Source: Actinoplanes flavus
GTDB lineage: Bacteria; Actinomycetota; Actinomycetes; Mycobacteriales; Micromonosporaceae
DNA length: 64,000 nucleotides
Direction: 5' to 3'
Assembly: GCF_017592555.1 (NCBI RefSeq)
Contig: NZ_JAGFNS010000020.1
Coordinates: 14,593-78,592 of the forward strand
Shown: one piece after another, positions 9,396-64,000 of the stretch
Layout of the letters: every line of letters begins with the position of its first letter
Position numbering within the stretch: position 1 is the first letter of the stretch
Made by a program: the position numbers and the translations under genes
The notes under the pieces: generated by a model
Seen by the model: the letters and a program-made list of their open reading frames with translations, nothing else
The model's database searches: none
Told to the model about the DNA's origin: nothing

Positions 9396-9439
9396 CTGAT
9401 CGCAATAGCGGTCCAGTCCCGTCACACCCCTCCAGCTGG

Positions 9440-9609
9440 CCACCGAGCTCAGCCCGGCGGCCGCGGCAAAGGATGGAGCTGCAGCGAGCCTGCGCGATCG
9501 GCCGGCCACCGAGCTCAGCCCGGCGGGCGCGGCAAAGGATGGAGTTGCAGGGAGCTCGCGTGGCTGGGCGGGACTGTCCTGGAAGGAACGGGACGGGGTC
9601 ACGCGTACC
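9440..9609 (-). repeat. Dispersed intergenic repeat, copy A plus partial duplicate
   Basis: A ~105-base unit (9505-9609, reverse orientation) starting GGTACGCGTGAC and ending in GCCGCGCCCGCCGGGCTGAG followed by a CTCGGTGG. Related copies lie at 21769-21872 and 49715-49820. The terminal half is duplicated once more at 9440-9490. The last codons and the stop of the LysR gene fall inside the unit. Confidence 0.8.
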
Positions 9610-10558: not shown

Positions 10559-10627
10559 AGAACTATTCTATGAGCACTCGCGCAGAACATAGTTCTTCCG
10601 ATGATCGGCATCCACGATCATGAACCC

Positions 10628-45565: not shown

Positions 45566-45629
45566 AGCAGGAAACACTCTGGGGCGACCCAGTGGAATCC
45601 TTGTCCCTTTCAGGGCAAGGAGATGTCAA
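45450..45629 (+). ncRNA. Predicted omega (re)RNA of the TnpB element
   Basis: In this family the guide RNA is made from the 3' end of tnpB through the right end of the element, and its last ~16-20 bases are the flanking DNA. The right-end hairpin and terminal GTCAA at 45599-45629 are the conserved scaffold end. The guide would begin at 45630 (GCCCAGGTCGCGATCG), that is, the last codons of the NRPS-like gene. The 5' border is only approximate. Confidence 0.55.
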
Positions 45630-48600
45630 GCCCAGGTCGCGATCGGGTTGCCGAGCCAGCGGGTGTCGGCGGGCACGGCGTCGCCGCGGGTGACCAGCGA
45701 GCCGGGGCCCACGGTGGTCCGGGCACCGATGCTCGCGCCGGGCAGCACGATGCCGTGCGGGCCGAGGGTGGCGCCCGCGCCGAGAGTGACCTCATCCATG
45801 CTCATGATCCGATCATGGAACAGGTGGGTCTGCACCACGCACCCCCGGTTCACGGTCGCGCCGGCGCCGAGACGGACCAGATCGAACTCCGGCAGCCACA
45901 GCGTCTCCAGCCACACACCACGGCCGATCCGCGCGCCGAGCGTCCGTAGCCACAGGTTCAGCAGCGGCGTCCCGGTGACGAACCGGAACAGCCAGGGCGC
46001 GCCGAGCACCTCGACGAACGTGTCGGCGAGCTCGTTGCGCCAGACGAACGACGTCCACAGCGCCCGCTCGCCGGCCCGGAACCGGCCGACCAGCAGCCAC
46101 TTCGCCGCTGACGCGGTGAGCGCCGCGACGATCGCGGCGGCCGACAGCACCGGCCCGGCGGCGAGCGCGGCCACCGCTGCTCCGGCGGTCCGCCAGATCA
46201 GCGTGAGCACGGCGAGCACCAGGATCGCCAGGGCGCCGGAGCCGATCACCGGGACGACCCGGCACAGTTCGATCGCGGCGCGGGCCAGCCGCAGCCGCGG
46301 CGGCGGGTCGAAGGTGCGGCCGGTGTCGGCCGCCTCGACGACGCGGCGCAGCGGCATCGGCGGGGCGCCCAGCCAGGACGAGCCCTTCTTGGCCCGGCGC
46401 GGCGCCGACGAGAGCACCCCGACCAGGCCGCGTTTGGGCACCGACCGGCCCGGCGCGGCCATCCCGGAGTTGCCGAGGAACGCCTGCTTGCCGATCCGGG
46501 CCGGGGCGACCCGCAGCCAGCCGTGGCTCAGCTGGTAGGTGGCGACCATGGTGTCGTCGGCCAGGAACGCGTGGTCGTCGACGGTGGTCATGGCCGGGAC
46601 CGCCAGCACCGTGGAGATCTCGGCGCCCCGGCCCACCCGCGCGCCGAGCAGGCGCAGCCACACCGGGGTGAACAGGCTGGAGTAGATCGGGAACAGCGCG
46701 ACCCGGGCCATCCCCATCAGGCGCTCGGTGGTCCACACCTGCCAGGCGACGCGCCCGCGGACCGGGTGGAACCCCTCCCGCAGGCCGATGCCGAGCAGGC
46801 GCACCGCCGCCAGCACGAGCAGGGCGTAGGCGACCAGGTAGGCGACCGGCGCGGCCGGGACGGCGAGCAGCGCGGGGCCGCGGGTGTTCGCCCAGCCGGC
46901 CAGGGCGAGCGCGGGCAGCGCGGCGAGCACCGGGAGCAGGCCCAGCAGCTGGGCGGTGACGCTGTAGGCGGCCACCCAGAACGGGCCGCCGAGCCGGGAG
47001 GGTTCCGGGCGCCGCTCCGGCCAGCCGGTCGTGTCCTTACCGGCGACCGGTACGGCCGGGGAGCCGGCCCAGCGCTGCCCGGCCGGCACCGCGCCGGTCA
47101 CGGTCGAGCCGGCGCCGATCCGCGCGCCTTTGCCGACCCGGGCGCCGGGCATCAGAGTGCTCCGGGAGCCGACCCGGGCGCCGGCGCCGACGCGCACCGT
47201 GCCGATCCGGACCACGTCGCCGTCGACCCAGTAGCCGGAGAGGTCGACCTCCGGCTCGACCGCCGCGCCGCGGCCGAGCTTGAGCAGCCCGGTGACCGGC
47301 GGCGCGGAGTGCAGGTCGACGTCGGCGCCGAGCCGCGCGCCGAGCGCCTTCGCGTAGGTGATCATCCAGCCCGCCCCGGCCACCCCGGTCGCGCCGGTCA
47401 GCTCGGCGAAGCGTTCGGCCGCCCACAGCCGGAGATGGACGTGTCCGCCGCGCGGGTAGGCGCCGGGGCCGACGCCGCGCAGCAGCAGCCGGGCGGCGGC
47501 CGCGGCCATGACGATCCGGCCCGGCGGGCTGAACAGCAGCGCCCAGGCGGCCGCGATCCACCACCAGGAGACCGCCGGGAGCAGCCCGACGGCGCGGCCC
47601 AGCGCGGCGGCCACGGTGAGCCAGCGGAGCCCCACCATCGCCAGCATCGGCACCATGAGCAGGGCCTGGAGGAACCCGGTCCGCCGGGGCGTGGGCCGCA
47701 CCGCCCGGTGGACCGTGGTCTCGGCGCCGAGCCCGTCGAGCACGCCCGCCATCTCGGACAGTCGCGGATTCTGGTAGACGTCGGCCACCGACACCCGCGG
47801 GTGGTCCCGCCGGATCCAGGCGACCAGCTGTGCCGCGTTCAGGCTGCTGCCGCCGCTGCTGAAGAAGTCGGCGCCGGGCTCGGCCGGGCGGACCCCGAGG
47901 ATCTCCTCCCAGCCGCCGGCCAGCCACTGCTCGGTCGCGGTCAGCCCGGCGTCCGGTGCGGCGCCGGGCACGGCCAGCGGCCAGGGCAGCGCCGCCCGGT
48001 CCACCTTGCCCGAGGTGCGGGTCGGCAGCCCGTCCACCACGGCCAGCAGCGGGACGAGCGCGGCCGGGAGCTGCTCGCGGATCCGCCGGTTGGCGGCCGC
48101 CAGGTCGAAACCGGCGGCGTCGTGCGGCACCAGGTAGCCGACCAGCAGCTGGTTACCGCCGGCGGTCCGCCGCACCGCGGCCGCCGCGCCGGCCACCCCG
48201 GACAGTGCCTGCAGCGCCGCGTCCACCTCGCCCAGCTCGATCCGGCGGCCACCGAGTTTCACCTGCTCGTCGCCGCGGCCCAGGAACAGCAGGCCGTCCG
48301 GCTCGGCGCGGACGATGTCGCCGCTGCGGTAGGCGCGGTCCCAGTCCAGGGCGGGCAGCGGCGCGAACTTCTCGGCGTCCTTGGCGGCGTCGAGATAGCG
48401 GGCCAGGCCGACACCGCCGATCACCAGCTCGCCGGTCTGCCCCATGGTGACCGGCTCACCGGACTCGTCGACGACGGCCAGCTCCCAGCCGGCCAGCGGC
48501 AGCCCGATGCGCACCGGGCCCTCGCCGGTCATCCGGGCGGCGCAGGCCACCACGGTCGCCTCGGTCGGGCCGTACGTGTTCCACAGCTCGCGTCCCCCGA

Positions 48601-49495
48601 CGGCCAGCCGCTCGGCCAGCTCCGGCGGGCACGCCTCACCACCGAAGATCAGCAGCCGGACGTCCTCGAGCGCCTCGGCGGGCCACAGCGCGGCGAGCGT
48701 CGGCACCGTGGACACCACCGTGATGCGCTGCCCGGCCAGCCACGGGCCCAGGTCGACGCCACTGCGCACCAGCGACCGCGCGGCCGGCACCAGGCAGGCG
48801 CCGTGCCGCCAGGCGAGCCACATCTCCTCACAGGACGCGTCGAAGGCCACCGACAGGCCGGCCAGGACGCGGTCGCCCGGCCCGAGCGGCGCGGCGCCGT
48901 CGCCGGTGAGGAACAGGTGCGCCTCGGCGTCCACGAACGCGGCCGCGGCGCCGTGCGGGACCGCCACCCCCTTCGGGGTGCCGGTGGATCCCGAGGTGAA
49001 GATGATCCAGGCGTCGTCGGCCGGGCCCCGCCGACCCGGCCGCCCGTGCGGGGTGCCCCGCGGCGACACGTCCAGGCCGTCGCCCAGCACGGCGCAGACG
49101 CCCGCCTCGGCGAAGACCAGCTCGGCGCGCTCGTCCGGGTCGTCGGCGTCCACCGGCACGTACGCCGCGCCGGCCGCCAGCACACCGAGGATGGCCAGGT
49201 ACAGTTCCGCCGTACCGGAGGAGATGCGGACGCCGACCCGGTCGCCGACGCCGATCCCGTGTCCGCTCAGCGTGGCGCGCAGCGCCTCCACCTCGGCGGC
49301 CAGCCGCCGGTAGGTCAGCGTGCCGGCGCCGGTGTCGATCGCGGGGGCGTCGGGGTGTGCCGTGACCGTCGCGTCGAGGATGTCGACCAGCGTGCGCCGG
49401 ACCGGAGCGGACCGCGAGCGGAACACCGCCGGGGCCTCCGGCTCCAGGGTGAACTCGGGAAGCTCGATCAGTCGCGGGTCGCTCGTCACGGTCAC
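45626..49495 (-). CDS. Pls/PosA-type NRPS (A-T plus membrane LbH acyltransferase-like domains)
   Basis: A 1289-residue membrane enzyme. An adenylation domain (about 25-510) has IIFTSGSTGTPKGVAV (A3), FDASCEEMWLAW (A4), NTYGPTEATV (A5), YRSGD (A7) and GRGDEQVKLGGRRIEL (A8). A thiolation domain follows, FFSSGGSSLNAAQL (about 540-555). The remaining ~700 residues alternate membrane helices with left-handed beta-helix stretches (GAGARVGSRSTLMPGARVGK and others), as in the NRPS family that includes epsilon-poly-L-lysine synthetase Pls. It activates one amino acid and polymerises or transfers it without condensation domains. The substrate is unknown. The gene ends at the border of the TnpB element; the last codon is unchanged by the insertion (GCA to GCT) and the stop is retained. 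Confidence 0.88.
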   Translation of the reverse strand: MTVTSDPRLIELPEFTLEPEAPAVFRSRSAPVRRTLVDILDATVTAHPDAPAIDTGAGTLTYRRLAAEVEALRATLSGHGIGVGDRVGVRISSGTAELYLAILGVLAAGAAYVPVDADDPDERAELVFAEAGVCAVLGDGLDVSPRGTPHGRPGRRGPADDAWIIFTSGSTGTPKGVAVPHGAAAAFVDAEAHLFLTGDGAAPLGPGDRVLAGLSVAFDASCEEMWLAWRHGACLVPAARSLVRSGVDLGPWLAGQRITVVSTVPTLAALWPAEALEDVRLLIFGGEACPPELAERLAVGGRELWNTYGPTEATVVACAARMTGEGPVRIGLPLAGWELAVVDESGEPVTMGQTGELVIGGVGLARYLDAAKDAEKFAPLPALDWDRAYRSGDIVRAEPDGLLFLGRGDEQVKLGGRRIELGEVDAALQALSGVAGAAAAVRRTAGGNQLLVGYLVPHDAAGFDLAAANRRIREQLPAALVPLLAVVDGLPTRTSGKVDRAALPWPLAVPGAAPDAGLTATEQWLAGGWEEILGVRPAEPGADFFSSGGSSLNAAQLVAWIRRDHPRVSVADVYQNPRLSEMAGVLDGLGAETTVHRAVRPTPRRTGFLQALLMVPMLAMVGLRWLTVAAALGRAVGLLPAVSWWWIAAAWALLFSPPGRIVMAAAAARLLLRGVGPGAYPRGGHVHLRLWAAERFAELTGATGVAGAGWMITYAKALGARLGADVDLHSAPPVTGLLKLGRGAAVEPEVDLSGYWVDGDVVRIGTVRVGAGARVGSRSTLMPGARVGKGARIGAGSTVTGAVPAGQRWAGSPAVPVAGKDTTGWPERRPEPSRLGGPFWVAAYSVTAQLLGLLPVLAALPALALAGWANTRGPALLAVPAAPVAYLVAYALLVLAAVRLLGIGLREGFHPVRGRVAWQVWTTERLMGMARVALFPIYSSLFTPVWLRLLGARVGRGAEISTVLAVPAMTTVDDHAFLADDTMVATYQLSHGWLRVAPARIGKQAFLGNSGMAAPGRSVPKRGLVGVLSSAPRRAKKGSSWLGAPPMPLRRVVEAADTGRTFDPPPRLRLARAAIELCRVVPVIGSGALAILVLAVLTLIWRTAGAAVAALAAGPVLSAAAIVAALTASAAKWLLVGRFRAGERALWTSFVWRNELADTFVEVLGAPWLFRFVTGTPLLNLWLRTLGARIGRGVWLETLWLPEFDLVRLGAGATVNRGCVVQTHLFHDRIMSMDEVTLGAGATLGPHGIVLPGASIGARTTVGPGSLVTRGDAVPADTRWLGNPIATWA

Positions 49496-52462: not shown

Positions 52463-52945
52463 TCAGCCGACCTCGGCCGGCGTCGCCTGGACGGTCACGA
52501 TCGCCGGTGCCGGGTCCTGTTCGTCCTGCGGAAGCGGCATCTGCCAGTCGGTCAGTTGCCGGCGGGTCAGCCCGAGGGTGTTGTGGCCCACCCACTGCTC
52601 GACGATCCGGCCGTCACGCAGCCGGAAGGTGTGGATCTCGCTCTCCACGCCCTCCGCGCCGGTGGGCGGGAAGGTCATGAACGGGCCGGTGTTGTGCCAC
52701 CGGATGCTCATCCGGAGGGTGACCCGGGTGCCGTCGGCGTTGCTGAACTCGTCGTGCAGCGAGGCCGTCAGCCCCGGATGTGCCCGGTGGAACGCCGCGA
52801 GGAAGCCCGTGATGAAGGCGGGGCCGGTGTCACCGCGACGGAACGGCGTGTAGAAGACGACGTCGTCGGCGTACATCTCGGTCAGGGTGTCGTAGTCCGC
52901 GGAGGCCACGGCGGTGAGGTAGCGGACGCCGAAACTGTCGGTCAT
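52463..52945 (-). CDS. SnoaL/NTF2-like protein, predicted ECF41 target
   Basis: A 160-residue protein with the cone-shaped NTF2/SnoaL fold: an N-terminal helix VRYLTAVASADYDTLTEMYADDVVFYTPF, then GFLAAFHRAHPGLT, and strands SEIHTFRLRDGRIVEQWVGHNTLGL. Members are ester cyclases or small-molecule binding proteins; no catalytic assignment is possible. It starts at ATG 52945. Its promoter region carries an exact ECF41-type promoter on the minus strand (53035-53061), and it is divergent from the ECF41 gene, replacing the usual oxidoreductase/epimerase/carboxymuconolactone decarboxylase partner. Confidence 0.85.
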   Translation of the reverse strand: MTDSFGVRYLTAVASADYDTLTEMYADDVVFYTPFRRGDTGPAFITGFLAAFHRAHPGLTASLHDEFSNADGTRVTLRMSIRWHNTGPFMTFPPTGAEGVESEIHTFRLRDGRIVEQWVGHNTLGLTRRQLTDWQMPLPQDEQDPAPAIVTVQATPAEVG

Positions 52946-53034
52946 GGTGGATGCCTCTCGGATCGGGGTGGAACGGACCAGCGGACCTGCTGGACAGCGG
53001 TCGCCGGTTCCGCACCGGTGCGTTCGGCCCATAC

Positions 53035-53061
53035 GACGCGGGGCGCCCGTCCTCTGTGACA
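53035..53061 (-). promoter_or_regulatory. ECF41-type promoter for the SnoaL-like gene
   Basis: On the minus strand, TGTCACA (plus-strand 53055-53061) is followed after exactly 16 bases by CGTC (plus-strand 53035-53038). This is the highly conserved ECF41-dependent promoter. It points to the SnoaL-like gene 52945, leaving a leader of about 80 bases. Confidence 0.85.
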
Positions 53062-53115
53062 TGCCGTGCGAAGTAGGGTGAGAACGAGATCGGAAGCCGC
53101 GGCGGGAGGCCTCGC

Positions 53116-54024
53116 GTGTCCGGACAGACCGTGTTCCCCGACGATTTCCAGCGCCATCGCGGGCTGCTCTTCCAGCTGGCGTACCGGATGACCGGCAGCA
53201 CCGCCGACGCCGAGGACGTGGTCCAGGAGACGTGGCTGCGCTGGCACCGGGTGGAGCCCGGGACGGTTCGTGACCCGAGGGCCTTCCTGGTGCGCACGGC
53301 CACCCGGCTGGCGATCGACCACCTCCGCCGAGAGCGGGTGCGCCGCGCGGCGTACATCGGACCGTGGCTGCCCGAGCCGCTGCCGAGCGCGCCGGGCGCC
53401 GACGAGCCGGTGGCGCGGGCCGAGTCCGTCTCGATGGCCGTGCTGGTGCTGCTGGAGTCGCTGTCGCCGCTGGAGCGTGCGGTCTTCGTGCTGCACGACG
53501 TCTTCGACTTCGGTTACCCGGAGGTGGCCGAGGCCGTCGGCCGTGCCGAGCCCGCGGTGCGCCAGCTCGCCGCCCGCGCCCGGGCGCACGTCCGGGAACG
53601 CCGCCCGCGGTACCACGCCGATCCCGCGCTCCGGCGGACCGTCACGGACCGGTTCCTGAAGGCCTGCCTGGGCGGCGATCTGAGCGAGCTGATGGACGTG
53701 CTCGCTCCCGACGTCGCGCTGTGGGCCGACGCGAACGGCTCCAACGAGATGCCGCGGGAGGTTCTGTACGGCTGGGACGCGGTGGTCGCGTTCTTCCGCG
53801 ACTCGATCGAACTGTTCCCGCCGGACCTCGCGGCGCACCCCGCCGACCTCAACGGAGGGCCCGCCGGTCTGCTCACCACCGCCGACGGGGTCGCCGCGGC
53901 GGTGCTGCTCGACCTCGACGAGCAGGGCCGGGTGGCCGTGGTCCGGCTGGTCCGCAACCCGGCGAAGCTCACCCGGCTCGGTCCGGCACGGTATCGGCAC
54001 CCAGTTCCCGGGCGATGTTCATGA
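53116..54024 (+). CDS. ECF41-family sigma factor with SnoaL-like C-terminal domain
   Basis: A 302-residue SigJ-like sigma factor. Region 2 (about 10-80: FQRHRGLLFQLAYRMTGSTADAEDVVQE, RDPRAFLVRTATRLAIDHLR), the ECF41 hallmark YIGPWLPEPLP between the regions, region 4 (about 110-165: LSPLERAVFVLHDVFDFGYPEVAEAVGR) and the C-terminal NTF2/SnoaL domain (about 185-290) with the GWDAVVAFFR stretch are all present. Near the end, RNPAKL corresponds to the conserved NPxKL motif. ECF41 sigma factors are controlled by this fused domain and not by a separate anti-sigma factor. GTG 53116 follows GGGAGG. Its end overlaps rfbA by 56 bases. Confidence 0.94.
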   Translation: MSGQTVFPDDFQRHRGLLFQLAYRMTGSTADAEDVVQETWLRWHRVEPGTVRDPRAFLVRTATRLAIDHLRRERVRRAAYIGPWLPEPLPSAPGADEPVARAESVSMAVLVLLESLSPLERAVFVLHDVFDFGYPEVAEAVGRAEPAVRQLAARARAHVRERRPRYHADPALRRTVTDRFLKACLGGDLSELMDVLAPDVALWADANGSNEMPREVLYGWDAVVAFFRDSIELFPPDLAAHPADLNGGPAGLLTTADGVAAAVLLDLDEQGRVAVVRLVRNPAKLTRLGPARYRHPVPGRCS

Positions 54025-54868
54025 CGTAGCGACCGTACGCCGAGCCGGCCATGCTCCGGCCGAGGCGGTGACACTGCTCGGCGTCGATGTAACCCATCCG
54101 CAGGGCGATCTCCTCGAGGCAGGCGATCTGCACGCCCTGGCGTTCCTCCAGGGTGCGTACGTACTGGCCGGCCTGGAGCAATGCCTCCGGGGTCCCGGTG
54201 TCCAGCCACGCGTACCCCCGGCTGAGTTCGACCACCCGGGCCCGGTTGCAGGCGATGTAGGCGTTGTTGACATCGGTTATCTCGAGTTCGCCGCGCGCCG
54301 ACGGGCGGATGTACTTAGCGATGTCGACCACGTCGTTGTCGTACAGATAGAGACCGGTGACCGCACGGTGGGACGGCGGGTTCTCCGGCTTCTCCTGGAT
54401 CTCCAGGATGTTCCCGTCGGCGTCGGTGACGGCGACACCGTATCGGTGCGGGTCGGTGACCTGATAGCTGAACAGGGTGCAGCCTTTCACCTGCGTCACC
54501 TCACGTTGCAGAAGCCGGCCGAACCCGCTGCCGTGGAAGATGTTGTCGCCGAGCACCAGCGCGCAATCATCGGAGGCGATGTGTTCGGCGCCGATGAGGA
54601 TGGCGTCGGCGATACCGCGCGGCTCGGGCTGGACGGCGTAGGTGAGGGCCACGCCCCAGGGGGAGCCGTCGCCCAGAATCTCGCGGAACAACGGCAGGTC
54701 TCCCGGGCGGAGAACGATGAGGATCTCGCGGATCCCGGCTGCCATCAGAACGGCGAGCGGATAGTAGATCATCGGTTTGTTGCCGACCGGGAGCAGCTGC
54801 TTGGAAAACGCGATGGTGAGCGGATGCAGCCGTTTACCGTTCCCGCCGGCGAGGACGATACCCTTCAC
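53969..54868 (-). CDS. rfbA: Glucose-1-phosphate thymidylyltransferase
   Basis: A 299-residue enzyme that makes dTDP-glucose from dTTP and glucose-1-phosphate, the first step to dTDP-deoxysugars. MKGIVLAGGNGKRLHPLT is the nucleotide-binding start, followed by SKQLLPVGNKPMIYYPL, EPRGIADAILIGAEHI, LVLGDNIFHGSGF and LEIQEKPENPPSHRAVTGLYLYD. The length is normal. Other dTDP-sugar genes are not in this window. It lies 60 bases downstream of the tryptophan dioxygenase gene on the same strand and may belong to the terpenoid cluster, which would then supply a glycosylated product. Its 3' end overlaps the ECF41 gene on the other strand. Confidence 0.95.
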   Translation of the reverse strand: MKGIVLAGGNGKRLHPLTIAFSKQLLPVGNKPMIYYPLAVLMAAGIREILIVLRPGDLPLFREILGDGSPWGVALTYAVQPEPRGIADAILIGAEHIASDDCALVLGDNIFHGSGFGRLLQREVTQVKGCTLFSYQVTDPHRYGVAVTDADGNILEIQEKPENPPSHRAVTGLYLYDNDVVDIAKYIRPSARGELEITDVNNAYIACNRARVVELSRGYAWLDTGTPEALLQAGQYVRTLEERQGVQIACLEEIALRMGYIDAEQCHRLGRSMAGSAYGRYVMNIARELGADTVPDRAG

Positions 54869-54928: not shown

Positions 54929-55729
54929 TCAGAGTTCGGCGCGCAGTTCCCAGAGCTCCGGGAAGAAATGTCTCTCGCAGGTGGCGCGCAGATAGGACAC
55001 GCCGGACGAGCCGCCGGTGCCCGCGCTGTTCCCGATGACCCGTTCCACCATCAGGACGTGCCGGGCCCGCCACATCGTGATGCCCTCGTCGTGGTCGAGC
55101 ATCGCTTCGGCCAGGACGGTGACCTCGTCGACGGGGACCTTCGACCGATAGAGCTTCACCAGATCGGGGTTGCCGCGCCGGGCCCGGAGCCGCTGGAACT
55201 CGTCCCACAGCGACGGTTCGGCCAGACGCCGTTCCAGGCGCCGCCGTTCGGCGCCGGACATCCGCAGCGTGGCGAGCAGGTTCTTCCTCTTGAGCCCGGA
55301 GAGGCATTCGATCTCGCGGAACTGCACCGATTGCAGACCGCTGGCGCCGCCGAGGGTGCGGCGCATCAGCGCGTAGCTGCCGGGGCTGATCGTCTCCAGC
55401 GTCGCCACCTGCTCGACCATGACGTCTTCCACCGAGCGGACGCGGCGCAGGCAGTGGACGGCCACGGCGATGTCGTCGGCCGCGACGGCCGCCACCGTGG
55501 CGTCCAGCTCGTAGAGAATTATCTTGAACAGCAGCTCGAATGCCTGGTGCACGGTGAAGAAGAAATGCGCGTCGTGCACGTCGGGCGATTCCCGGGGCAG
55601 GGACAACAGGGAATCCAGGCGCAGGAAATCGCCGTACGTCGGTTCGGGTACAGCCACGGGCCAGTCCAATCGCGGTCTCGCCGGCTCTGACGTTCCGGCA
55701 CCCTCGTTGCGGTGTGAACCCTGCCGCAT
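54929..55729 (-). CDS. kynA: Tryptophan 2,3-dioxygenase
   Basis: A 266-residue heme dioxygenase that opens the indole ring of tryptophan to N-formylkynurenine. Family marks are PTYGDFLRLDSLLSL, FFTVHQAFELLFKIILYELD (active-site His and substrate-binding helices), HCLRRVRSVEDVMVEQVATLETISP, LDHDEGITMWRARHVLMVERVIG (heme-ligand region) and GTGGSSGVSYLR, then FFPELW. LLFK replaces the more usual LWFK. No kynurenine formamidase or kynureninase lies beside it. The start is unsure: ATG 55729 lacks a clear RBS. It is divergent from the P450-terpenoid operon, so it may supply an aromatic unit for that product; this is inference. Confidence 0.88.
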   Translation of the reverse strand: MRQGSHRNEGAGTSEPARPRLDWPVAVPEPTYGDFLRLDSLLSLPRESPDVHDAHFFFTVHQAFELLFKIILYELDATVAAVAADDIAVAVHCLRRVRSVEDVMVEQVATLETISPGSYALMRRTLGGASGLQSVQFREIECLSGLKRKNLLATLRMSGAERRRLERRLAEPSLWDEFQRLRARRGNPDLVKLYRSKVPVDEVTVLAEAMLDHDEGITMWRARHVLMVERVIGNSAGTGGSSGVSYLRATCERHFFPELWELRAEL

Positions 55730-55927
55730 TCCCGGGGCCGCCCCAACCCCCACTTGATCGGGGTATTCCGGTCGATCCCCGCCTGATACCGTCGCCCGCA
55801 CCCGGCTATTCGGTCACGCGATCACATAATGGCTTGCCGCCGCCCTTTCCGTTCGGGCAACAAATGAGCACACGGAACGATAGCAGGCAGGAAAAAGGGT
55901 CGGTACCCCATTCAAATCGGGGTTCTG

Positions 55928-55944
55928 CGCACCGGCACGGTGCG
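55928..55944. promoter_or_regulatory. Hairpin in the divergent control region of the terpenoid cluster
   Basis: CGCACCG / CGGTGCG form a 7-bp stem with a 3-base loop in the 316-base gap 55730-56045. The gap also has an AT-richer stretch near 55825-55900, likely with the promoters for both directions. No operator of a known family was recognised. Confidence 0.35.
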
Positions 55945-56045
55945 GCAGCGTGGCCACCGCGACACCGGCGCGCGATGCGTTTCCGAGCGCCGAGGACGAC
56001 CCCGTCGTACACGTTCCGCCCACCGTTGCCCACGGAGGAGAACCG

Positions 56046-56147
56046 ATGACGCCAGCCCGGACAGCCACCCCTCACCGGCACCGCGCGGGCCGGCCCGCCG
56101 CGCCGGCCCGGCTGGGCTCGCTCCGCCCGGATCCGTGCGGCCGATGA
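56046..56147 (+). CDS. 33-codon leader peptide overlapping the P450 gene
   Basis: A small frame with an excellent RBS (GGAGGAG, five bases before ATG 56046) coding for a 33-residue Arg/Pro/Ala-rich peptide beginning MTPARTATPHRHRAGR and ending PDPCGR. Its stop overlaps the P450 ATG as ATGA, while the P450 start itself has only a weak RBS. The leader therefore probably serves to couple P450 translation to a strong ribosome entry site. It could be a short functional peptide; it resembles no known precursor family. It has no Trp or other attenuation codon run. Confidence 0.5.
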   Translation: MTPARTATPHRHRAGRPAAPARLGSLRPDPCGR

Positions 56148-57319
56148 GCGCGTTCCCGCGTGCGGCCGACCACGCCGGCGAACTGCCTCCCGAGTTCGGC
56201 CGGCTCCGCCGGGAGCAGCCGCTGTCCCGGGTCCGCCTCGCGGACGGCCGGACGGCCTGGCTGGTCACCCGCTACGAGCACGTCCGGACGGTACTCGCCG
56301 GGGAGGGTTTCACCCGGGACATCCCGGGGGCCACGTCCGGCGCGGGAGCCGGGATCCGCACGGTCAACATGGACGGCCCGCCGCACACGCAGCTCCGCGG
56401 GCTGGTGGCCAAAGCCTTCACGGTACGCAACGTCGACCGCCGTCGCGCCCGGGTGGAGGATCTCACCGAACGCCTGCTCGACGACCTGGAGAAGGCCGGA
56501 CCGCCCGCCGACCTGGTCGGTCATCTCGCGCGGCCGCTGCCGGCGCTCGTCATCGTCGAGGTGCTCGGCTTCCCCACGGACGACCATGAGCTCCTGCACG
56601 GCTTGTCGAACCGCATCACCGCGCTGACCGGCGACGGCAGCGACCAGCGGGCGGCCTGGCAGGAGTTCGCCGCCTACGTGGGCGGGCACGTCGCGGTGAA
56701 ACGGGCGGCGCTGGCCGCCGGGGCATCGCCGGACTCGGACGTGCTCAGCACCCTCGTCCATGCCCTCGACGCCGGCGGCCGGCTCGTGCTCGAGGAGCTG
56801 GTGAACCTGACCATCGTGATCCTGGCGGGTGGCCTGGAGACCACCGGGACCTCGATCAGCGCCGGGCTGCTCCGGCTGCTCACCCACCCGGCCGAGCTCG
56901 GCCGGCTGCGCGCGGACCCGTCGCTGGTGGACACGGCGGTCGAGGAGATCCTGCGCTACCAGCCGGTCATCGACGTCAACCGGCTGCAGATCGCCACCGA
57001 AGACGTCCGGCTGGACGGCCGGCTGATCCGGGCCGGTGAGCTCGTCCAGATCTCGATCAACTCGGCCAACCGCGACGAGGCCGTCTTCACCGGCGGCGGA
57101 AGCCTCGACGTGGGCCGGCTCCCGAACCCGCACATCGCCTTCGGCCACGGCGCCCATCACTGTCTCGGTGCGGCGCTCGCCCGCCTCGAGCTCCGGACCG
57201 CGCTCACCGCGGTGCTCCGCAGATTTCCGCGGCTCAGCCTCGCCGTACCGGTGGAGAGCCTGCGCTGGCGGGGCGGTCACGTCACCTTGGGCCTCGCCGA
57301 ACTCCCCGTCACCTGGTGA
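56144..57319 (+). CDS. Cytochrome P450
   Basis: A 391-residue bacterial class I P450. It opens ELPPEFGRLRREQPL and WLVTRYEHVRTVL, has MDGPPHTQLRGLVAKAFT, the I-helix LAGGLETTGTS (oxygen activation), the K-helix EEILRY (ExxR) and the heme loop FGHGAHHCLGAALARLE with Cys about 340. It should hydroxylate or otherwise oxidise the terpenoid product using a ferredoxin encoded elsewhere. ATG 56144 overlaps the leader stop. It is the first large gene of an operon running to the window end and is followed after 38 bases by the FAH-family gene. Confidence 0.94.
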   Translation: MSAFPRAADHAGELPPEFGRLRREQPLSRVRLADGRTAWLVTRYEHVRTVLAGEGFTRDIPGATSGAGAGIRTVNMDGPPHTQLRGLVAKAFTVRNVDRRRARVEDLTERLLDDLEKAGPPADLVGHLARPLPALVIVEVLGFPTDDHELLHGLSNRITALTGDGSDQRAAWQEFAAYVGGHVAVKRAALAAGASPDSDVLSTLVHALDAGGRLVLEELVNLTIVILAGGLETTGTSISAGLLRLLTHPAELGRLRADPSLVDTAVEEILRYQPVIDVNRLQIATEDVRLDGRLIRAGELVQISINSANRDEAVFTGGGSLDVGRLPNPHIAFGHGAHHCLGAALARLELRTALTAVLRRFPRLSLAVPVESLRWRGGHVTLGLAELPVTW

Positions 57320-57357
57320 CCGCGTCCCCGCCGTCATAGCCGGAAGGAGGAACACCG

Positions 57358-58221
57358 TTGCTCGTCTGCCGATACACCGACGCGGGCCGGTACGGATACG
57401 GCCGCATCGACTCCGGGTCCGGCGGCACGCACCTCTCCCCGGTCCGCTACGACACCGCGGCCCGGAGCTGGGTCCCCGCGGGCGGACCGTCGCGCCCGCT
57501 CAGCGACGTCACACTGCTCGCGCCGGCCGAACCCACCAAGATCGTTTGCCTGGCCCTGAACTGGGCGGCCGGCGATCGGCCCACCGGCGGCCCACTCCCC
57601 CGCGCGGCGGACTCCGCGGTGCTGCTCAAACCGTCCACCTCACTGATCGGGCCGGACAGCGCCGTCGTCCATCCGGGTCCGGACTGGGAACTGCGCCACG
57701 AGGCGGAACTCGCCGTGGTGATCGGAGTCCGCTGCTCCCGGGTCTCCGCCGCCCGCGCGCCCGACGTGATCGCCGGCTACACCGCGGCGAACGACATCAC
57801 CGCGTACGCGCGCCGGACCCCGCAGAACGCGGACCGGCAACCCGTGTGGGCCAAACACTTCGACGGCTGCACTCCCCTGGGCCCCTGGCTCGCCACCGGT
57901 CTCGACCCGGCCGACGTCGTACTCAGCTGCCGGGTCGACGGTGAGCTCCGGCAACAGGCCGGCACCCGGGACCTGGTCGTTCCCGTGGCCGACGTGGTCG
58001 CGCTGGTCAGCGAGCACATGACGCTGCTGCCCGGCGACGTGGTGCTCACCGGGACCCCGCCGGGTTCCGGCCCGCTGCCGGCCGGCAGCCGGGTCGAGGT
58101 GTCGGCGACCGGCATCGGTGTCCTGCGCACCACGGTCGACGCGCCGTCCCGGCCCGGGGAGCGCCGCACGGCCGCTGCTCTCTCGACCTCCCTCGACGGA
58201 AAAGGACGGTGCCACCGATGA
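57358..58221 (+). CDS. Fumarylacetoacetate hydrolase (FAH) family protein
   Basis: A 287-residue protein with the FAH fold: PTKIVCLALNWAAGD, the metal-binding ELRHEAELAVVIGVRC (Glu pair), VIAGYTAANDITAY with the third acidic ligand, AKHFDGCTPLGPWL, and the end LLPGDVVLTGTPPGSGPLPAGSRVEV. The family hydrolyses or decarboxylates C-C bonds of beta-diketo acids from ring cleavage, or hydrates/isomerises them. Start is TTG 57358 with GGAGGA upstream. Its stop overlaps the polyprenyl synthase ATG (ATGA). Its place in a terpenoid operon is unusual. Confidence 0.9.
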   Translation: MLVCRYTDAGRYGYGRIDSGSGGTHLSPVRYDTAARSWVPAGGPSRPLSDVTLLAPAEPTKIVCLALNWAAGDRPTGGPLPRAADSAVLLKPSTSLIGPDSAVVHPGPDWELRHEAELAVVIGVRCSRVSAARAPDVIAGYTAANDITAYARRTPQNADRQPVWAKHFDGCTPLGPWLATGLDPADVVLSCRVDGELRQQAGTRDLVVPVADVVALVSEHMTLLPGDVVLTGTPPGSGPLPAGSRVEVSATGIGVLRTTVDAPSRPGERRTAAALSTSLDGKGRCHR

Positions 58222-59234
58222 CAGCCACCGAGGAGCATTCCCGGGGCCGCCCCGGGACGCTCGCGTTCCCGGGCGACGGCCGCCCGCTGCTCAGCGACCT
58301 GAGACGGATCTGGACGGCCGGCGACGACGACCCCCTGCGCCGGATCGCGGCGTACGCCCTGCTGCCGGCCGGCAAGCTGCTGCGGCCGCTGCTGGTGCTC
58401 GAGTCCGCCAAGTCGGTCGGCGGCTCGCCCGACGACCTGGGCGAACTCGCGCTCGCCGTGGAGTATCTGCACGTCGCCACCCTCATCCACGACGACATCA
58501 TCGACGAGGACGACATCCGTCGCGGCCGGCCCGCCGTGCACGCCGCTTTCGGCACGCCGGACGCCATCGTGACCGGTGACGGGCTCCTGCTGCAGGCTTT
58601 CGCCGCGCTGACCCGGGTGAGCCCGGCCGGTGTCACCGACACCGCGCTGAGGTCGGCGGTCGCCGTCCTCGCGGACGCCGGCATCGACCTGTGCCGCGGG
58701 CAGCTGCGGGAGGCCGAGCTCACCGGCGACCTGCACTGCTCGACCGAGCAGTACCTGACGATGGCACGGTTGAAGACCGGGGTGCTGTTCGAGGCGTCGT
58801 GCCGGATCGGGGCGATCCTCGGAGGCGGCCCGCCCGCGTGGGTGGACGCGCTCGGCACGTTCGGCGTCCATCTCGGTGTCGCCTTCCAGATCCGGGACGA
58901 CCTGCTCGGCTTCGACGACAACGCCGAGCTCGTGGGCAAGCCCAACGAGAGCGATGTGGCGAACCGGCGCCCGACCCTGCCCATGTTGCTGGCCTACCAG
59001 AGCGCCGGCGCCGACGACCGGGACCTGCTCGAGAGGGCCTTCCGCGGCGAGCTGAGCGGGGTGCGGGCGTTTCCGGAGGTACGCCGGATCGTCGAGGAGA
59101 CGGGCGCTCGCGCGGCGGCCGAGTGGCACGCCGCGGATCTGATCGACCGTGCCAAGCGGGCCCTCGCACCACTGCCCGGGAACGGCGCCGTCCTGACCGC
59201 GATCGCCGACTACGCCCGCGAGCGAGGGCACTGA
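58218..59234 (+). CDS. Polyprenyl diphosphate synthase (GGPP synthase type)
   Basis: A 338-residue trans-prenyltransferase. The first Asp-rich motif is HDDIIDEDD (about 91-99), the second is QIRDDLLGFDD (about 229-239), and GKLLRPLLV and VANRRPTLPMLL are also conserved. An Ala at five residues before the first motif and small residues around it favour C20 or longer chains, but the product length cannot be decided by eye. It condenses IPP with allylic diphosphates for the pathway encoded downstream. It overlaps the FAH gene by four bases and ends two bases before the UbiA start. Confidence 0.93.
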   Translation: MTATEEHSRGRPGTLAFPGDGRPLLSDLRRIWTAGDDDPLRRIAAYALLPAGKLLRPLLVLESAKSVGGSPDDLGELALAVEYLHVATLIHDDIIDEDDIRRGRPAVHAAFGTPDAIVTGDGLLLQAFAALTRVSPAGVTDTALRSAVAVLADAGIDLCRGQLREAELTGDLHCSTEQYLTMARLKTGVLFEASCRIGAILGGGPPAWVDALGTFGVHLGVAFQIRDDLLGFDDNAELVGKPNESDVANRRPTLPMLLAYQSAGADDRDLLERAFRGELSGVRAFPEVRRIVEETGARAAAEWHAADLIDRAKRALAPLPGNGAVLTAIADYARERGH

Positions 59235-59236
59235 TC

Positions 59237-60277
59237 GTGCGCCGGGTCACGACGACGTTCGCCGCCCATGTCCGCACGTGGCGGCCGTACACGCTCTGGT
59301 ATGTCGGTCTGGTGGGGTTGGCGGGTGCGGCTCTCGCGGCCGACCGGCCCACCGTCGCCCGGCTGGCGGCCGCGTGGCTGGTTCCGACGCTCGTCTGGAT
59401 CGCGGCGCACTACCTCGGCGACTACCTCGACCGTGACCTGGACGCGATCGCCAAACCCCAGCGGCCGATCCCCTCCGGGCAGATGCGGCCGGGGACCGCT
59501 CTCGGATGCGGCGTGGCCCTGGCCGTCGGGGCGGGCGCGGTGGCCCTGGCCGTGAACTGGCGCGTCCTTCTGGTGTTCCTGGCGGGCATCGGCGGCGCGG
59601 TCGCCTACAACGGCTTCTTCAAGGCCCGGGGCATCTGGGGCAACCTCGTGCGGGGTTCGCTCACCGGCGCCGCCTTCCTCTGCGGTGAGCTGATGACCGC
59701 CCCGGCCCCGGTCCCGCGGCTGCTGCCGTTCGTGCTCGCCTTCTGCCTGCACGACACCGCGTCCAATCTCGTCGGCGCGCTGCGCGACGTCGACGGGGAC
59801 CGGGCGGGAGGTTATCGCACCTTCGCGGTACGCCATGGGCTGCGCCGAGGAGTGTGGACCTCCGCCGGTCTCTACGCCGCGAGCATCGCCGCCGTGGTGA
59901 CCGGGCTTCTGCTCGTGCCGCGGCACGACCGGTTCTCCGGCGTTCTGCTCGTCGTCGCGACGGGCCTCGGTTGTCATGCCTGGGCACCGCTGGTACGGGC
60001 CGGGGACGCCCTGTCCGCCCGGACGGCGCTGCGGTCGCACGCGACGCTCGTCGTCGAACGGGTCGTCCTGGCCGCCGCGGTGCTGGTTCCGGGCCTGGGC
60101 GCGCCGGTCACGGCGGCTCTCGTCACGCCGATGCTGCTGGTCACCGCCGCGAGTCAACGGCTGATGCGGACACGACACGAGTTCACCCCCGCCGCCCGGC
60201 CGGTCCTCTGGTCCGCCGTGACATCCGCGCGGCGCCCGGCCCGGACGATCGCCCCCATGAAGGAGAAGCAGCCGTGA
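59237..60277 (+). CDS. UbiA-family membrane prenyltransferase or cyclase
   Basis: A 346-residue integral-membrane protein with eight or nine helices. The first Asp-rich motif is GDYLDRDLD (about 61-69; the usual leading Asn is Gly) followed by AIAKPQRPIPSG, and the second is DVDGDRAGGYRTFAVRHG (about 178-195). These bind the Mg-diphosphate of the prenyl donor. UbiA enzymes prenylate aromatics or other acceptors, and some act as terpene cyclases in bacterial diterpenoid pathways; both fit here. GTG 59237 begins just after the synthase stop. Its own stop overlaps the next start (GTGA). It does not sit with menaquinone genes. Confidence 0.9.
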   Translation: MRRVTTTFAAHVRTWRPYTLWYVGLVGLAGAALAADRPTVARLAAAWLVPTLVWIAAHYLGDYLDRDLDAIAKPQRPIPSGQMRPGTALGCGVALAVGAGAVALAVNWRVLLVFLAGIGGAVAYNGFFKARGIWGNLVRGSLTGAAFLCGELMTAPAPVPRLLPFVLAFCLHDTASNLVGALRDVDGDRAGGYRTFAVRHGLRRGVWTSAGLYAASIAAVVTGLLLVPRHDRFSGVLLVVATGLGCHAWAPLVRAGDALSARTALRSHATLVVERVVLAAAVLVPGLGAPVTAALVTPMLLVTAASQRLMRTRHEFTPAARPVLWSAVTSARRPARTIAPMKEKQP

Positions 60278-61971
60278 GCTCCCCGGTGAACGATCAGGTG
60301 GACGGCGCCGTCGGGCGCGCGGCCGACGCCCTGTTCGCGGTACAGCGCGCCGAGGGTTCCTGGCCCAATCGCCGGCCCACCGCCGTGCTGGGCACGGCGG
60401 GTGCGGCGATCGCCCTGCATCTGGCCGACCGCGACCGCTCGGCCGGCCTGACCGCGCGCGCGGTCCACTGGCTGGGCGAGGCGCAGAACCCGGACGGCGG
60501 CTGGGGTGGTGTCGCCGGAGCGCCCTCGCAGGTGATCCCCACGGTGATCGCGGCGTCCGCGCTGCGGATCATCGCGCCGGAGACGACCCACGACCGGGTC
60601 CGCCGCGCGCTGGACCTGGTGCACGCCGACGGCGGGCCGACCGCCCTGAACGACGCCGGCATGGCGCACATGGCGTCGGCCTTCCTGACCCTGGCCGGGC
60701 TGCCGGCCGCGGGCGGCGCCCGCCGTATCCCGCTGGAGCTTCTGCTGCTCCCGGCACGACTGTGGCGTGCCCGGCTGTCGTTCCGGATGGCCCCGTTCGT
60801 CGCCATGGCGTTCATGCAGTCGCGGGGCCGTCCGGTGCGGGGCCCGCGCCGGCTCGCCCGGCGCGCCGGGTTGCGCCTGCTGAGCCGGATGGAACGACAG
60901 GAGAACGATCCCGGCGGGTACGGCGGCGACAACTGGCTGGTGGCCGTGGTCTGCATCGGCCTGGTCAGCGCCGGGGCACCGCAGGAGATGATCGCCCGTA
61001 CCGTGGACTACCTGCGGGCCAACGTCCATCCCGACGGCTCCTGGCACATCATGCAGGGACTCGACGTCATCGGCGGGGCGTACGTCGCCCGCGGGCTGGC
61101 CGACGCCGGGTACACCGGCGACGCCCGCCTCGCCGCGGCCCGCCGGTGGTTGCGCGGCTGCCAGCAGTCCGAGGCCTTTCCGCTGTACGCCAGCCCGCCC
61201 GGCGGATGGGGCTGGGAGGGCCCCCGCGGCTGGCCCAACATCCTCGACAGCGCCAGTGTCCTCGCCGCCCTCGTCGTGGCCGGCGGCGAGGAGCCCGGCG
61301 AGGTGACGCGCCTGGGGCTGCGCTGGCTGGTGTCGCGCCAGGACCGCTCCGGCTCGTGGGGGACCTTCGTGCCCGACACCACGCTGCGCAATGACGGGCC
61401 GTGCCCGTACGTGACCGCGGCCTGTCTCGAGACGCTGATCGACAGCGGCGCCGCCGGCGATCCGGCCGTTCGCCGCGGCCTCGACTGGCTGCTCGGCCGG
61501 CAGCGGCCCGACGGCACCTACGAGGCGCTCTGGTACCGGGGGCCGGTGCCGGGCACCGCGATGGCGCTCGCCGCCTTCGGCCGGGCCGGGATGGCCGGGC
61601 ACCCCGGCGCCCGCCGGGCCCGCGACGCCCTGCTGAGGGCCCAGTTGCCGGACGGCGGATGGGGCCCCGGGGACACCGGCGTGCCCGGCGACGATCCCAC
61701 CGGCACCGTCGAGGAGACCGCCTGGGCGGTGCGCGCCCTGCTGGTCTCCGGGATGCCCGCGGACGACCCGAGGATCCGCCGGGGGGTGGCGTTCATCGTG
61801 GCGGCGCAACGCCCGGACGGGCTCTGGCCGGCGGCGCCGGTCTGCATGCACATCCGGGACGCGGCCTACTACGTGGACGGCTTGATCGTCGACGGGCTGA
61901 GCCTGCGGGCTCTCGGCGCCTATCGTGCCGCCCGGCACGCCGCCGCCGTCGCCGGCAGCGAGGTGTCATGA
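60274..61971 (+). CDS. Squalene-hopene-cyclase-like protein lacking DXDD
   Basis: A 565-residue alpha/alpha-barrel protein with at least six QW-like repeats (QNPDGGWGG, HPDGSWHIM, QDRSGSWGTF, RPDGTYEALW, LPDGGWGPG, RPDGLWPA). The order and the C-terminal GTVEETAWAVRAL agree with squalene-hopene cyclases. The catalytic DXDDTA is replaced: the aligned segment is WPNILDSASVLAAL (NILD at about 322-325), so the central Asp that donates the proton becomes Leu. It may cyclise an epoxide, made by the next gene product, or use another acid, or act only as a scaffold. GTG 60274 follows AAGGAG and overlaps the UbiA stop; it overlaps the next gene by four bases. Confidence 0.85.
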   Translation: MSSPVNDQVDGAVGRAADALFAVQRAEGSWPNRRPTAVLGTAGAAIALHLADRDRSAGLTARAVHWLGEAQNPDGGWGGVAGAPSQVIPTVIAASALRIIAPETTHDRVRRALDLVHADGGPTALNDAGMAHMASAFLTLAGLPAAGGARRIPLELLLLPARLWRARLSFRMAPFVAMAFMQSRGRPVRGPRRLARRAGLRLLSRMERQENDPGGYGGDNWLVAVVCIGLVSAGAPQEMIARTVDYLRANVHPDGSWHIMQGLDVIGGAYVARGLADAGYTGDARLAAARRWLRGCQQSEAFPLYASPPGGWGWEGPRGWPNILDSASVLAALVVAGGEEPGEVTRLGLRWLVSRQDRSGSWGTFVPDTTLRNDGPCPYVTAACLETLIDSGAAGDPAVRRGLDWLLGRQRPDGTYEALWYRGPVPGTAMALAAFGRAGMAGHPGARRARDALLRAQLPDGGWGPGDTGVPGDDPTGTVEETAWAVRALLVSGMPADDPRIRRGVAFIVAAQRPDGLWPAAPVCMHIRDAAYYVDGLIVDGLSLRALGAYRAARHAAAVAGSEVS

Positions 61972-63242
61972 CACCGCCGACCGACACCGACGTCGTGGTC
62001 TGCGGCGCGGGGGTGGCCGGCCTCGCCGCGGCCCGCGCCCTCGGCCGGCTCGGCCTGCGGGTGACGCTGATCGAGAAGAAGCGCCGGCAGCCGCCCGTGG
62101 CGAAGGGTGAGGTGCTGCAACCCGGATCGCTCGACATCCTCGACGGCTGGGACGTGCTGCACCGGCTCGAATCCCGGGACGCCGTGCGCCTGGACCGGCT
62201 CGCCGTCCGCACGGCCGACGGCCACGACCTGGCGACCATGGATTTCACCGCGCTCGACTGCGCACGCCCGTGGATGCTCGCCCACGACTACACCGTCATC
62301 CTGGACTGCCTGGAGGAGGCTCTCGGCTCGAACGTGCGCCGGCACCGGGGCGTCCTCGCGGAGGAGCTGATGCGCGACGGCGACGGGCGCGTCACCGGGG
62401 TGCACGTCTCCCAGGACCGGCGACGGCATTCGATCCGGGCCCGGCTGGTGGTGGCCGCCGACGGCATGTCGTCGCGTCTGCGGCGGCTGGCCGGCCTGAC
62501 GGCGGAGCCGGTGGCGTACGGCCACAAACTGCTGTCGTTCGAGCTCACCGACGCCCCGGCCGGCGCCGCCGAGGTGTCCGCGCACATCACCCGCCGGGGC
62601 CTCGTCATGGTCTATCCCCTGCCGCACCGCCGCACCCGCGTCTACGTCCAGGTGGGCCCGGACGAGTTGCGGGGCATGACGGGCACCTGCCTGAAGGAGT
62701 GGTGCGACGGCTTGGTGGCCGACGTACCCGTCCTCGAGCCGCTGACCGACGCGCTCCAGAGCGGCCTGGCGCACCGGCAGGTGCTTCCCGTCTGGCGGTA
62801 CTGTGCGGCTTCCCTGGTCGGTCCCGGCTTCGCCCTGGTCGGCGAGGCCGCGCACGGCGTACATCCGTTGTCGGCCCAGGGCATGAACACCGCGATCGGT
62901 GACGCTCACGACCTCGCGAACCGGCTGGCCGGGATCGATGCCGGACGTCCGGACGCGGTCGACGGCGCGCTGCTGGCCTACCAGCACGCGCGGGCCCGGC
63001 GGATCAAGGACGTCCACGTGATGAGCCACAACGCCGCACGGATGATCACGCAGACCTCGTGGGCCGGCCGGTTGCTGGGCCGCCGCCTGCTGAGCCGCAC
63101 CGGGCGCAACCCCCGGCTGTCGCACCTCACCGCGTACAACATGTCCGGCCTCGGCATGCGCCCGCTGAACGTGGTGGACCGGCTGGTCCAGCTGGGCGCA
63201 CTCCCCGAGACCCGCGGCCGCTCACCCATGCCTCTCCCGTGA
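61968..63242 (+). CDS. FAD-dependent monooxygenase (epoxidase-like)
   Basis: A 424-residue flavoprotein. The N-terminal GxGxxG is [18 protein letters not shown], followed by LIEKK. The middle has [16 protein letters not shown] (DG motif) and the late [34 protein letters not shown] (GD motif). This is the para-hydroxybenzoate-hydroxylase/squalene-epoxidase fold. In a terpenoid operon it most likely epoxidises the terminal alkene of the prenyl chain before cyclisation, though ring hydroxylation is possible. ATG 61968 overlaps the cyclase-like gene (ATGA). It has a C-terminal extension with many basic residues, likely membrane-associated. Confidence 0.9.
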
Positions 63243-63292
63243 CCGGCCCGGAGCGGGCCCGCGGAAACGAGAAGACCGGAAAGGAACCGCAG

Positions 63293-64000
63293 ATGTCCGA
63301 CACACTCAAGACCGCTTTCGAGGTGACGCCGCTGACCGGTGCGCTCGGGGCGACGGTTCGCGGCCTGAGGCTCGCGGAGATCACCGACGAGGATTTCGCC
63401 GAGCTGCGCCGGCTGCTCCTGCAACACCTGGTGCTGTTCCTCCCCGACCAGCAGGACTGGGCGCCCGAGTCCCGGGTCGCCTTCGGGCGCCGGTTCGGCG
63501 AGCTGGAGGTGCATCCGTACCTCCCGCACCTCGACGGCCACCCGGAGATCCAGATCATCGACTCCGAGCAGGACGGCAAGATCCCGATCTGGCACACCGA
63601 CATGACGTACTCGCCCAACCCTCCGGTCGGATCGGTGTTGCAGATCATCCGGACCCCCGGGCACGGCGGCGACACCATGTGGTCCAACCAGTATCTGGCG
63701 TACGAGTCGCTGTCGGCGCCGCTTCGCGATCTGCTCGACGGGCTGACCGCGATCCACGCCATCCACATTCCCGGCCTCGACAGCCGGGCGGAGCACCCGG
63801 TCGTACGGACGCATCCGGAGACGGGCCGGCGTGCGCTCTTCGTCAACCGGGCGCACACGTCGCACATCGTGCAGCTCAGCCGCAACGAGAGCGACGCGCT
63901 CCTGCAGTACCTCACCGAGTTCGCCACATCGCCCCAGTTCACGTGCCGCTATCGATGGACCGCCGGTGACGTCGCGATCTGGGACAACCGGGTCACCCAG
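63293..64000 (+). CDS. TauD/TfdA-type Fe(II)/2-oxoglutarate dioxygenase (partial)
   Basis: The first 236 codons; the gene runs off the window. [16 protein letters not shown] and LVLFLPDQQ open the family fold. The iron-binding HxD is [13 protein letters not shown], and [16 protein letters not shown] follows. [22 protein letters not shown] and [15 protein letters not shown] lead to the distal His/Arg, the Arg and His being cut off or just beyond. It should hydroxylate or desaturate the terpenoid using 2-oxoglutarate. ATG 63293 follows AAAGGAA, 50 bases after the monooxygenase gene, the longest gap within the operon. Confidence 0.92.

Follow-up and report, generated by a model that had tools for sequence, protein, structure and literature searches.

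What does a tightly packed run of terpenoid genes in Actinoplanes flavus make, and has such a set of genes been seen before? The stretch analysed here (the window) comprises 64,000 nucleotides, positions 14593-78592 of contig C13, from a genome of 9.68 Mb in 94 contigs. At its right end it carries genes for a cytochrome P450, an FAH-fold protein, a polyprenyl synthase, a UbiA-family prenyltransferase, a cyclase with the squalene-hopene cyclase (SHC) fold, a FAD-dependent monooxygenase and a TauD-type dioxygenase, next to a divergent tryptophan 2,3-dioxygenase. With a probability of about 0.88, we read this locus as the scaffold-forming half of a glycosylated diterpenoid cluster of the phenalinolactone/tiancilactone type. 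The cluster is real and looks intact. It was followed past the window in 80 kb of C13 starting at 68000, and coordinates above 64000 are window coordinates extrapolated onto C13.

The operon and its counterpart in a tiancilactone producer

The genes at the right end of the window are as follows (Pfam E-values unless stated).

53969..54868, minus strand: RmlA, glucose-1-phosphate thymidylyltransferase, deoxysugar supply (NCBIfam TIGR01207, 398.5 bits, cut-off 360.65)
54929..55729, minus strand: divergent tryptophan 2,3-dioxygenase, cluster copy (PF03301, 1.5e-43; frame open to GTG 55801, ATG at 55729)
56144..57319, plus strand: cytochrome P450 (PF00067, 3e-31 on 56147-57319; ATG 56144 read from the sequence)
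57358..58221, plus strand: FAH-fold protein, TTG start (PF01557, 6.6e-50)
58218..59234, plus strand: polyprenyl synthase, probably for geranylgeranyl diphosphate (GGPP) (PF00348, 3.2e-58 on 58209-59234)
59237..60277, plus strand: UbiA-family intramembrane prenyltransferase (PF01040, 2.2e-31)
60274..61971, plus strand: SHC-fold, class II-type cyclase with NILD replacing DxDD (SQHop_cyclase_C 8.3e-37, SQHop_cyclase_N 7.1e-25)
61968..63242, plus strand: FAD-dependent monooxygenase, probable terminal-olefin epoxidase (FAD_binding_3 1.4e-33; squalene epoxidase (SE) PF08491 8e-10)
63293..64000, on to 64159 past the window, plus strand: TauD-type Fe/2-oxoglutarate dioxygenase (PF02668, 3.7e-65 for the full gene)

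All of the gene identities proposed in the first-pass annotation, from the P450 to the TauD enzyme and the tryptophan dioxygenase, were matched by Pfam, and its reading of the operon as terpenoid, combining prenyl transfer with epoxidation and cyclisation, is supported. Its eight co-directional genes are in fact seven on the plus strand: the tryptophan dioxygenase lies on the minus strand, its ATG at 55729 being the left edge that had been assigned to the operon. Likewise, of five junctions said to overlap or to span fewer than 3 bases, four lie within the window (FAH/synthase, -4; synthase/UbiA, +2; UbiA/cyclase, -4; cyclase/FAD, -4), and the fifth, dxs/ispG (-4), lies beyond it, where the operon runs on along C13. 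The P450/FAH (+38) and FAD/TauD (+50) junctions are looser, and all of these distances rest on start codons that we picked.

The first-pass annotation also held that the gene set looked undescribed, a view that it named as refuted if a described cluster matched in gene order. Such a match exists in Streptomyces sp. CB03234, which makes tiancilactones according to excerpts of PMC10301674. All seven genes of P450-FAH-synthase-UbiA-cyclase-FAD-TauD occur there in the same order and orientation, with 59-85% identity (P450 64%, FAH 59%, synthase 63%, UbiA 64-65%, cyclase 63-71%, FAD 66%, TauD 84-85%). This locus holds the only close relative of the cyclase in the CB03234 genome (two pieces, 68 and 71% identical), and the one other match, at 37%, is elsewhere. 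Excerpts of PMC10301674 and PMC11069151 describe inactivation of the tnl cluster in a CB03234 derivative, and the latter presents tiancilactones as diterpenes carrying chloroanthranilate and gamma-butyrolactone. The pathway family is already described; here it occurs in Actinoplanes with added sugar-attaching genes. In a literature search of a collection with few subscription-journal papers, none of the papers listed was titled on this operon.

A relative of the cyclase (E <= 1e-30) is present in 25 of 300 sampled genomes of the family, that of A. flavus itself included. In the 20 kb around the 24 other family loci, the synthase, UbiA, cyclase and FAD genes were found in 22, TauD in 20 and FAH in one. 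Loci from named genomes, some of which are the same places as the family loci, were counted over about 10 kb on each side of the cyclase (in L067-L069 and L072, one of the two sides was shorter); among these 25, UbiA was found in 24, FAD in 23, the synthase in 22 (one only 29% identical), TauD in 20, FAH in 6 and the dioxygenase in 2, or 3 if a copy just outside locus L061 is included.

The analysis shows which genes are present, their order, relatives and motifs, and the fold predicted for the cyclase; from these we infer the substrates, the step order and the product. Cluster-borne Dxs, IspG and IspH would raise precursor supply, the polyprenyl synthase would make GGPP, and UbiA would move the C20 chain onto a small acceptor. 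The FAD enzyme would epoxidise the terminal olefin, after which the SHC-fold enzyme, using no DxDD motif, would open the epoxide and close the rings. This order is taken from the title of a phenalinolactone study, which gives prenylation, epoxidation and cyclisation. The P450s and the TauD enzyme may then oxidise the cyclised product towards a gamma-lactone. A coenzyme A (CoA) ligase and an acyl carrier protein (ACP) would activate an aromatic acid for attachment as an acyl group; this acid is most likely anthranilate, derived from tryptophan through the dioxygenase. A 2,3,6-trideoxyhexose would be built and then attached by glycosyltransferases.

Several points weigh against this reading. There is no kynureninase in the cluster, the sole match in the genome adjoining a second dioxygenase on contig C25, and a profile search of the genome gave no convincing tryptophan halogenase. 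The dioxygenase within the CB03234 cluster is only 30% identical to that of the window, and we took the CB03234 locus to be the published tnl cluster because it is the sole such cyclase locus in that genome. The phenalinolactone cluster is likened by description, its record not having been found in the collections searched. Finally, the gene for dTDP-glucose 4,6-dehydratase sits outside the cluster, on contig C31 (409.8 bits, cut-off 365.1).

The tryptophan dioxygenase and a probable aromatic unit

The cluster dioxygenase falls below the equivalog cut-off for tryptophan 2,3-dioxygenase (NCBIfam TIGR03036, 207.2 versus 390.7 bits), and it keeps the HQ, RH and GTGGSSG stretches when aligned to solved dioxygenases. 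Elsewhere, tryptophan halogenases adjoin the cluster dioxygenases (Pfam, 465.1 bits in CB03234 and 546.2 bits in Actinomadura litoris NEAU-AAG5). In A. litoris, whose dioxygenase is 70% identical to that of the window, TauD is followed directly by the dioxygenase, then by the halogenase and a kynureninase (263.1 bits, cut-off 246.4), and a probable kynurenine formamidase, named by eye, lies near by. In the genome of locus L061, a dioxygenase and a halogenase lie about 10 kb from the cyclase. The only tryptophan halogenase match in the A. flavus genome scores 20.8 bits (29.4 when its neighbours are included; cut-off 21), covers profile positions 1-62 only and is on another contig; chlorination is therefore unlikely.

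One alternative, that of the first-pass annotation, is a meroterpenoid route, in which a kynurenine-derived aromatic acid serves as UbiA's acceptor for GGPP and the product is then epoxidised and cyclised. The UbiA, epoxidase and cyclase genes do adjoin a divergent tryptophan dioxygenase, and excerpts of PMC5618424 describe a bacterial pair of UbiA and SHC-like enzymes for meroterpenoids (merosterols). The dioxygenase could also act from elsewhere, as each of the genomes behind the seven nearest named loci contains a dioxygenase match of some kind. However, UbiA is present in 24 of the 25 named loci and the dioxygenase in only 2, with the third about 10 kb from the L061 cyclase; in the L064-L067 genomes, dioxygenase matches and cyclase lie on different contigs. 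Moreover, the operon is accompanied in L061-L063 by relatives of the acyl-CoA ligase (60-62% identical) and of the ACP (57-72%), which could activate the aromatic acid and are more likely than UbiA to handle it, and in tiancilactones the chloroanthranilate and the gamma-butyrolactone are separate moieties (excerpts of PMC11069151). We consider this route very improbable, and the idea that UbiA acts on kynurenine acids was discarded because of the co-occurrence pattern in the named loci, counted over about 10 kb on each side of the cyclase.

Because UbiA is so much more widespread than the dioxygenase, the latter probably feeds an anthranilate acyl unit rather than the UbiA acceptor. The kynurenine-derived unit of the first-pass annotation stays plausible somewhere in the product, given the A. 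litoris dioxygenase near a halogenase, probable formamidase and kynureninase, but is not supported as the UbiA acceptor. Since the A. flavus cluster has neither a halogenase nor a kynureninase, we would expect the acid to be anthranilate without chlorine, or some other acid derived from tryptophan, with the C25 kynureninase taking part in its synthesis.

A cyclase without DxDD and an FAH-fold protein without lid residues

The synthase translation carries HDDIIDEDD and RDDLLG stretches, and the aspartate-rich stretches of UbiA are GDYLDRDLD and RDVDGD, variants of both being present in relatives. The cyclase is predicted to adopt the squalene-hopene cyclase fold with two alpha-barrel domains, yet DxDD, the mark of canonical class II terpene cyclases, was not found at its motif position. 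When the cyclase was aligned by hidden Markov model (HMM) with lanosterol synthase and with the squalene-hopene cyclase 1gsz, GWPNILD fell opposite DVDD/DCTAE, with NILD opposite the DVDD of 1gsz; these alignments ruled out an NDGPCP stretch that had been considered as the replacement for DxDD. Among 41 cyclase rows, the motif position reads NxLD in 8, VTLE in 31, NTDD in 1 and SAAA in 1. In the phylogenetic tree, the window and CB03234 cyclases fell within the 8-row set with a support of 100/100.

Two further alternatives concern the cyclase. Under a platensimycin-like logic, the SHC-fold enzyme would first cyclise GGPP to a copalyl diphosphate and UbiA would then serve as a class I terpene synthase; we regard this as very unlikely. 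An ordinary hopanoid or triterpene locus would agree with the SHC/oxidosqualene cyclase (OSC) fold and the squalene-epoxidase-like FAD enzyme, but it is scarcely credible and was discarded in view of the motif and the family scores, as the cyclase misses the SHC and OSC cut-offs by far (TIGR01507, 133.3 versus 431.1 bits; TIGR03463, 106.1 versus 851; TIGR01787, 148.3 versus 322.7), DxDD is absent, and the neighbours are secondary-metabolite genes common to the tiancilactone producer.

Some relatives are noted in their own right. Actinoplanes sp. KI2 (L084, 9923-11653) carries a third, long-branched cyclase lineage with NTDD at the motif position, which may mark an intermediate towards NxLD/VTLE; the cyclase gene is immediately preceded by dxs, ispG and ispH. 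In locus L060 (about 8877-10817), the cyclase match is split in two, its motif position reads SAAA, and neither UbiA nor a synthase was matched within the 20 kb around it; this cyclase is possibly degraded or re-used. The cyclase of Wenjunlia vitaminophila (L066) belongs to the NxLD clade, yet only the cyclase and FAD genes were matched within 21.7 kb. In a metagenome-assembled genome of Kutzneria (that of L067), one cyclase relative is 64% and another 43% identical to the cyclase of the window; they lie on two contigs, C181 and C47.

The FAH gene was seen only with the NxLD cyclase clade, in 7 of its 8 rows, and was not found in the VTLE-type loci examined, each of about 22 kb or less. All seven members, namely the protein of the window and six relatives, lack the usual His-Glu lid pair at the expected place, where the three solved relatives whose alignments were examined, 3rr6, 4pfz and 3qdf, have HAAE, HAEE and HIAE (H-x-x-E) following an NY turn. 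E115, E117, D146 and K166 are invariant in the seven; the first three, which we take to be the metal-binding acidic residues of the FAH superfamily, line up with the solved relatives. Structure prediction from 7 rows gave a mean pLDDT of 48, too low for the model to be of use.

We tentatively suggest, while considering it rather unlikely, that the FAH-fold protein no longer acts as a hydrolase. Instead it would provide or carry a C3 unit, an enol at the pyruvate level, and UbiA would prenylate this unit with GGPP to a C23 chain. UbiA would then alkylate a non-aromatic keto acid, and the chain would be epoxidised, cyclised by the NxLD enzyme and later lactonised. The lactone carbons of phenalinolactone are said to originate from pyruvate. 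The C23 count would fit the "dinorsesterterpenoid" lactones (trinulactones), which are grouped beside the phenalinolactone and tiancilactone types in excerpts of the review PMC10301674. Among the papers listed by a literature search on the origin of the lactone, none was titled on it. The role of an FAH-fold protein that lacks the lid residues and was seen only with the NxLD cyclase clade is a testable gap.

Flanking genes and comparison with known systems

Downstream of the window, the following genes were found.

64224-66098: dxs (named by eye)
66095-67228: ispG (named by eye)
67269-68789: acyl-CoA ligase
68921-70366: NDP-hexose 2,3-dehydratase (2.7e-149)
70872-71717: SARP regulator
71987-73111: ispH (named by eye)
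73357-74547: P450 (named by eye)
at 75561, 80042 and 95310: three EryCIII-like glycosyltransferases
elsewhere downstream of TauD on C13: RmlD-like reductase, several methyltransferases, PapA-type acyltransferase and ACP
elsewhere downstream of TauD on C13: RfbH-type 3-dehydratase (654.5 bits, cut-off 423)

The deoxysugar and glycosyltransferase genes within the cluster are RmlA, the 2,3-dehydratase, the RfbH-type dehydratase, the RmlD-like reductase and the three EryCIII-like glycosyltransferases. A 2,3,6-trideoxy sugar is predicted from the RfbH-type 3-dehydratase together with the NDP-hexose 2,3-dehydratase. Relatives of RmlA occur in A. litoris (55%) and in loci L064 (Symbioplanes lichenis) and L065 (56-57%). 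A 936-residue protein (window-equivalent 85770-88580) has two methyltransferase regions, one of them AprA MT2-like (PF23525, 1.5e-67); it is 74% identical in A. litoris and looks unusual for a terpenoid cluster.

On the left flank, a lone nonribosomal peptide synthetase-like open reading frame of 1289 residues with an adenylation-type start lies upstream of the cluster (window 45626-49495, minus strand). Between it and RmlA (52463-54024) are a SnoaL-like protein (minus strand) and an ECF sigma-factor-like gene (plus strand), and at 44393-45565 (plus strand) an open reading frame resembles an IS200/IS605-type OrfB/TnpB protein. All of these were named by eye.

For the comparison of whole clusters, 36 query genes were used, with one query kept per place and 26% matches left out. 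The 61 kb fetched from CB03234 hold relatives of 13 of them. Besides the operon, CB03234 shares the CoA ligase (60%), ACP (58%), P450e (68%), P450b (70%), methyltransferase MT4 (58%) and a dioxygenase copy (30%); it has a tryptophan halogenase, whereas the A. flavus genome has no convincing one, and those 61 kb gave no best match for the window's sugar, glycosyltransferase, methylerythritol phosphate (MEP) pathway, SARP, MT1-MT3 and MT5 genes. The closest whole cluster seen is that of A. litoris NEAU-AAG5, with the same operon and relatives of 30 of the 36 genes in the stretches fetched, including the dioxygenase, dxs (76-81%), ispG (86%), ispH (82%), glycosyltransferases, methyltransferases, P450s and sugar genes. 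It has a halogenase and a kynureninase, both lacking from the A. flavus cluster, and its fetched stretches gave no best match for the RfbD-like, AMP2, GT3, DegT/RfbH, S-adenosylmethionine synthetase and FAD2 genes. The single literature search made for this A. litoris cluster listed no paper titled on it.

Most VTLE-type clusters of Micromonospora and Saccharothrix share the synthase-UbiA-cyclase-FAD block, with TauD, P450 and glycosyltransferase genes near by in most. They differ from the window in that the cyclase is 41-47% identical (named loci) and reads VTLE rather than NILD, and no FAH-fold gene was found; unlike the window, the VTLE-type cluster of Micromonospora chalcea (L074) has an aminotransferase, a KASIII-type protein and an O-methyltransferase. 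Phenalinolactone carries a pyrrole acyl unit and the sugar amicetose; its producer was not among the matches of the named-genome scan. According to excerpts of PMC10301674, phenalinolactones, from Streptomyces sp. Tu6071, are tricyclic terpene glycosides, and excerpts of PMC5618424 place a squalene-monooxygenase homologue in their cluster. The combination of a tiancilactone-type operon with MEP, deoxysugar and glycosyltransferase genes in Actinoplanes predicts a glycosylated relative of this antibacterial diterpenoid family.
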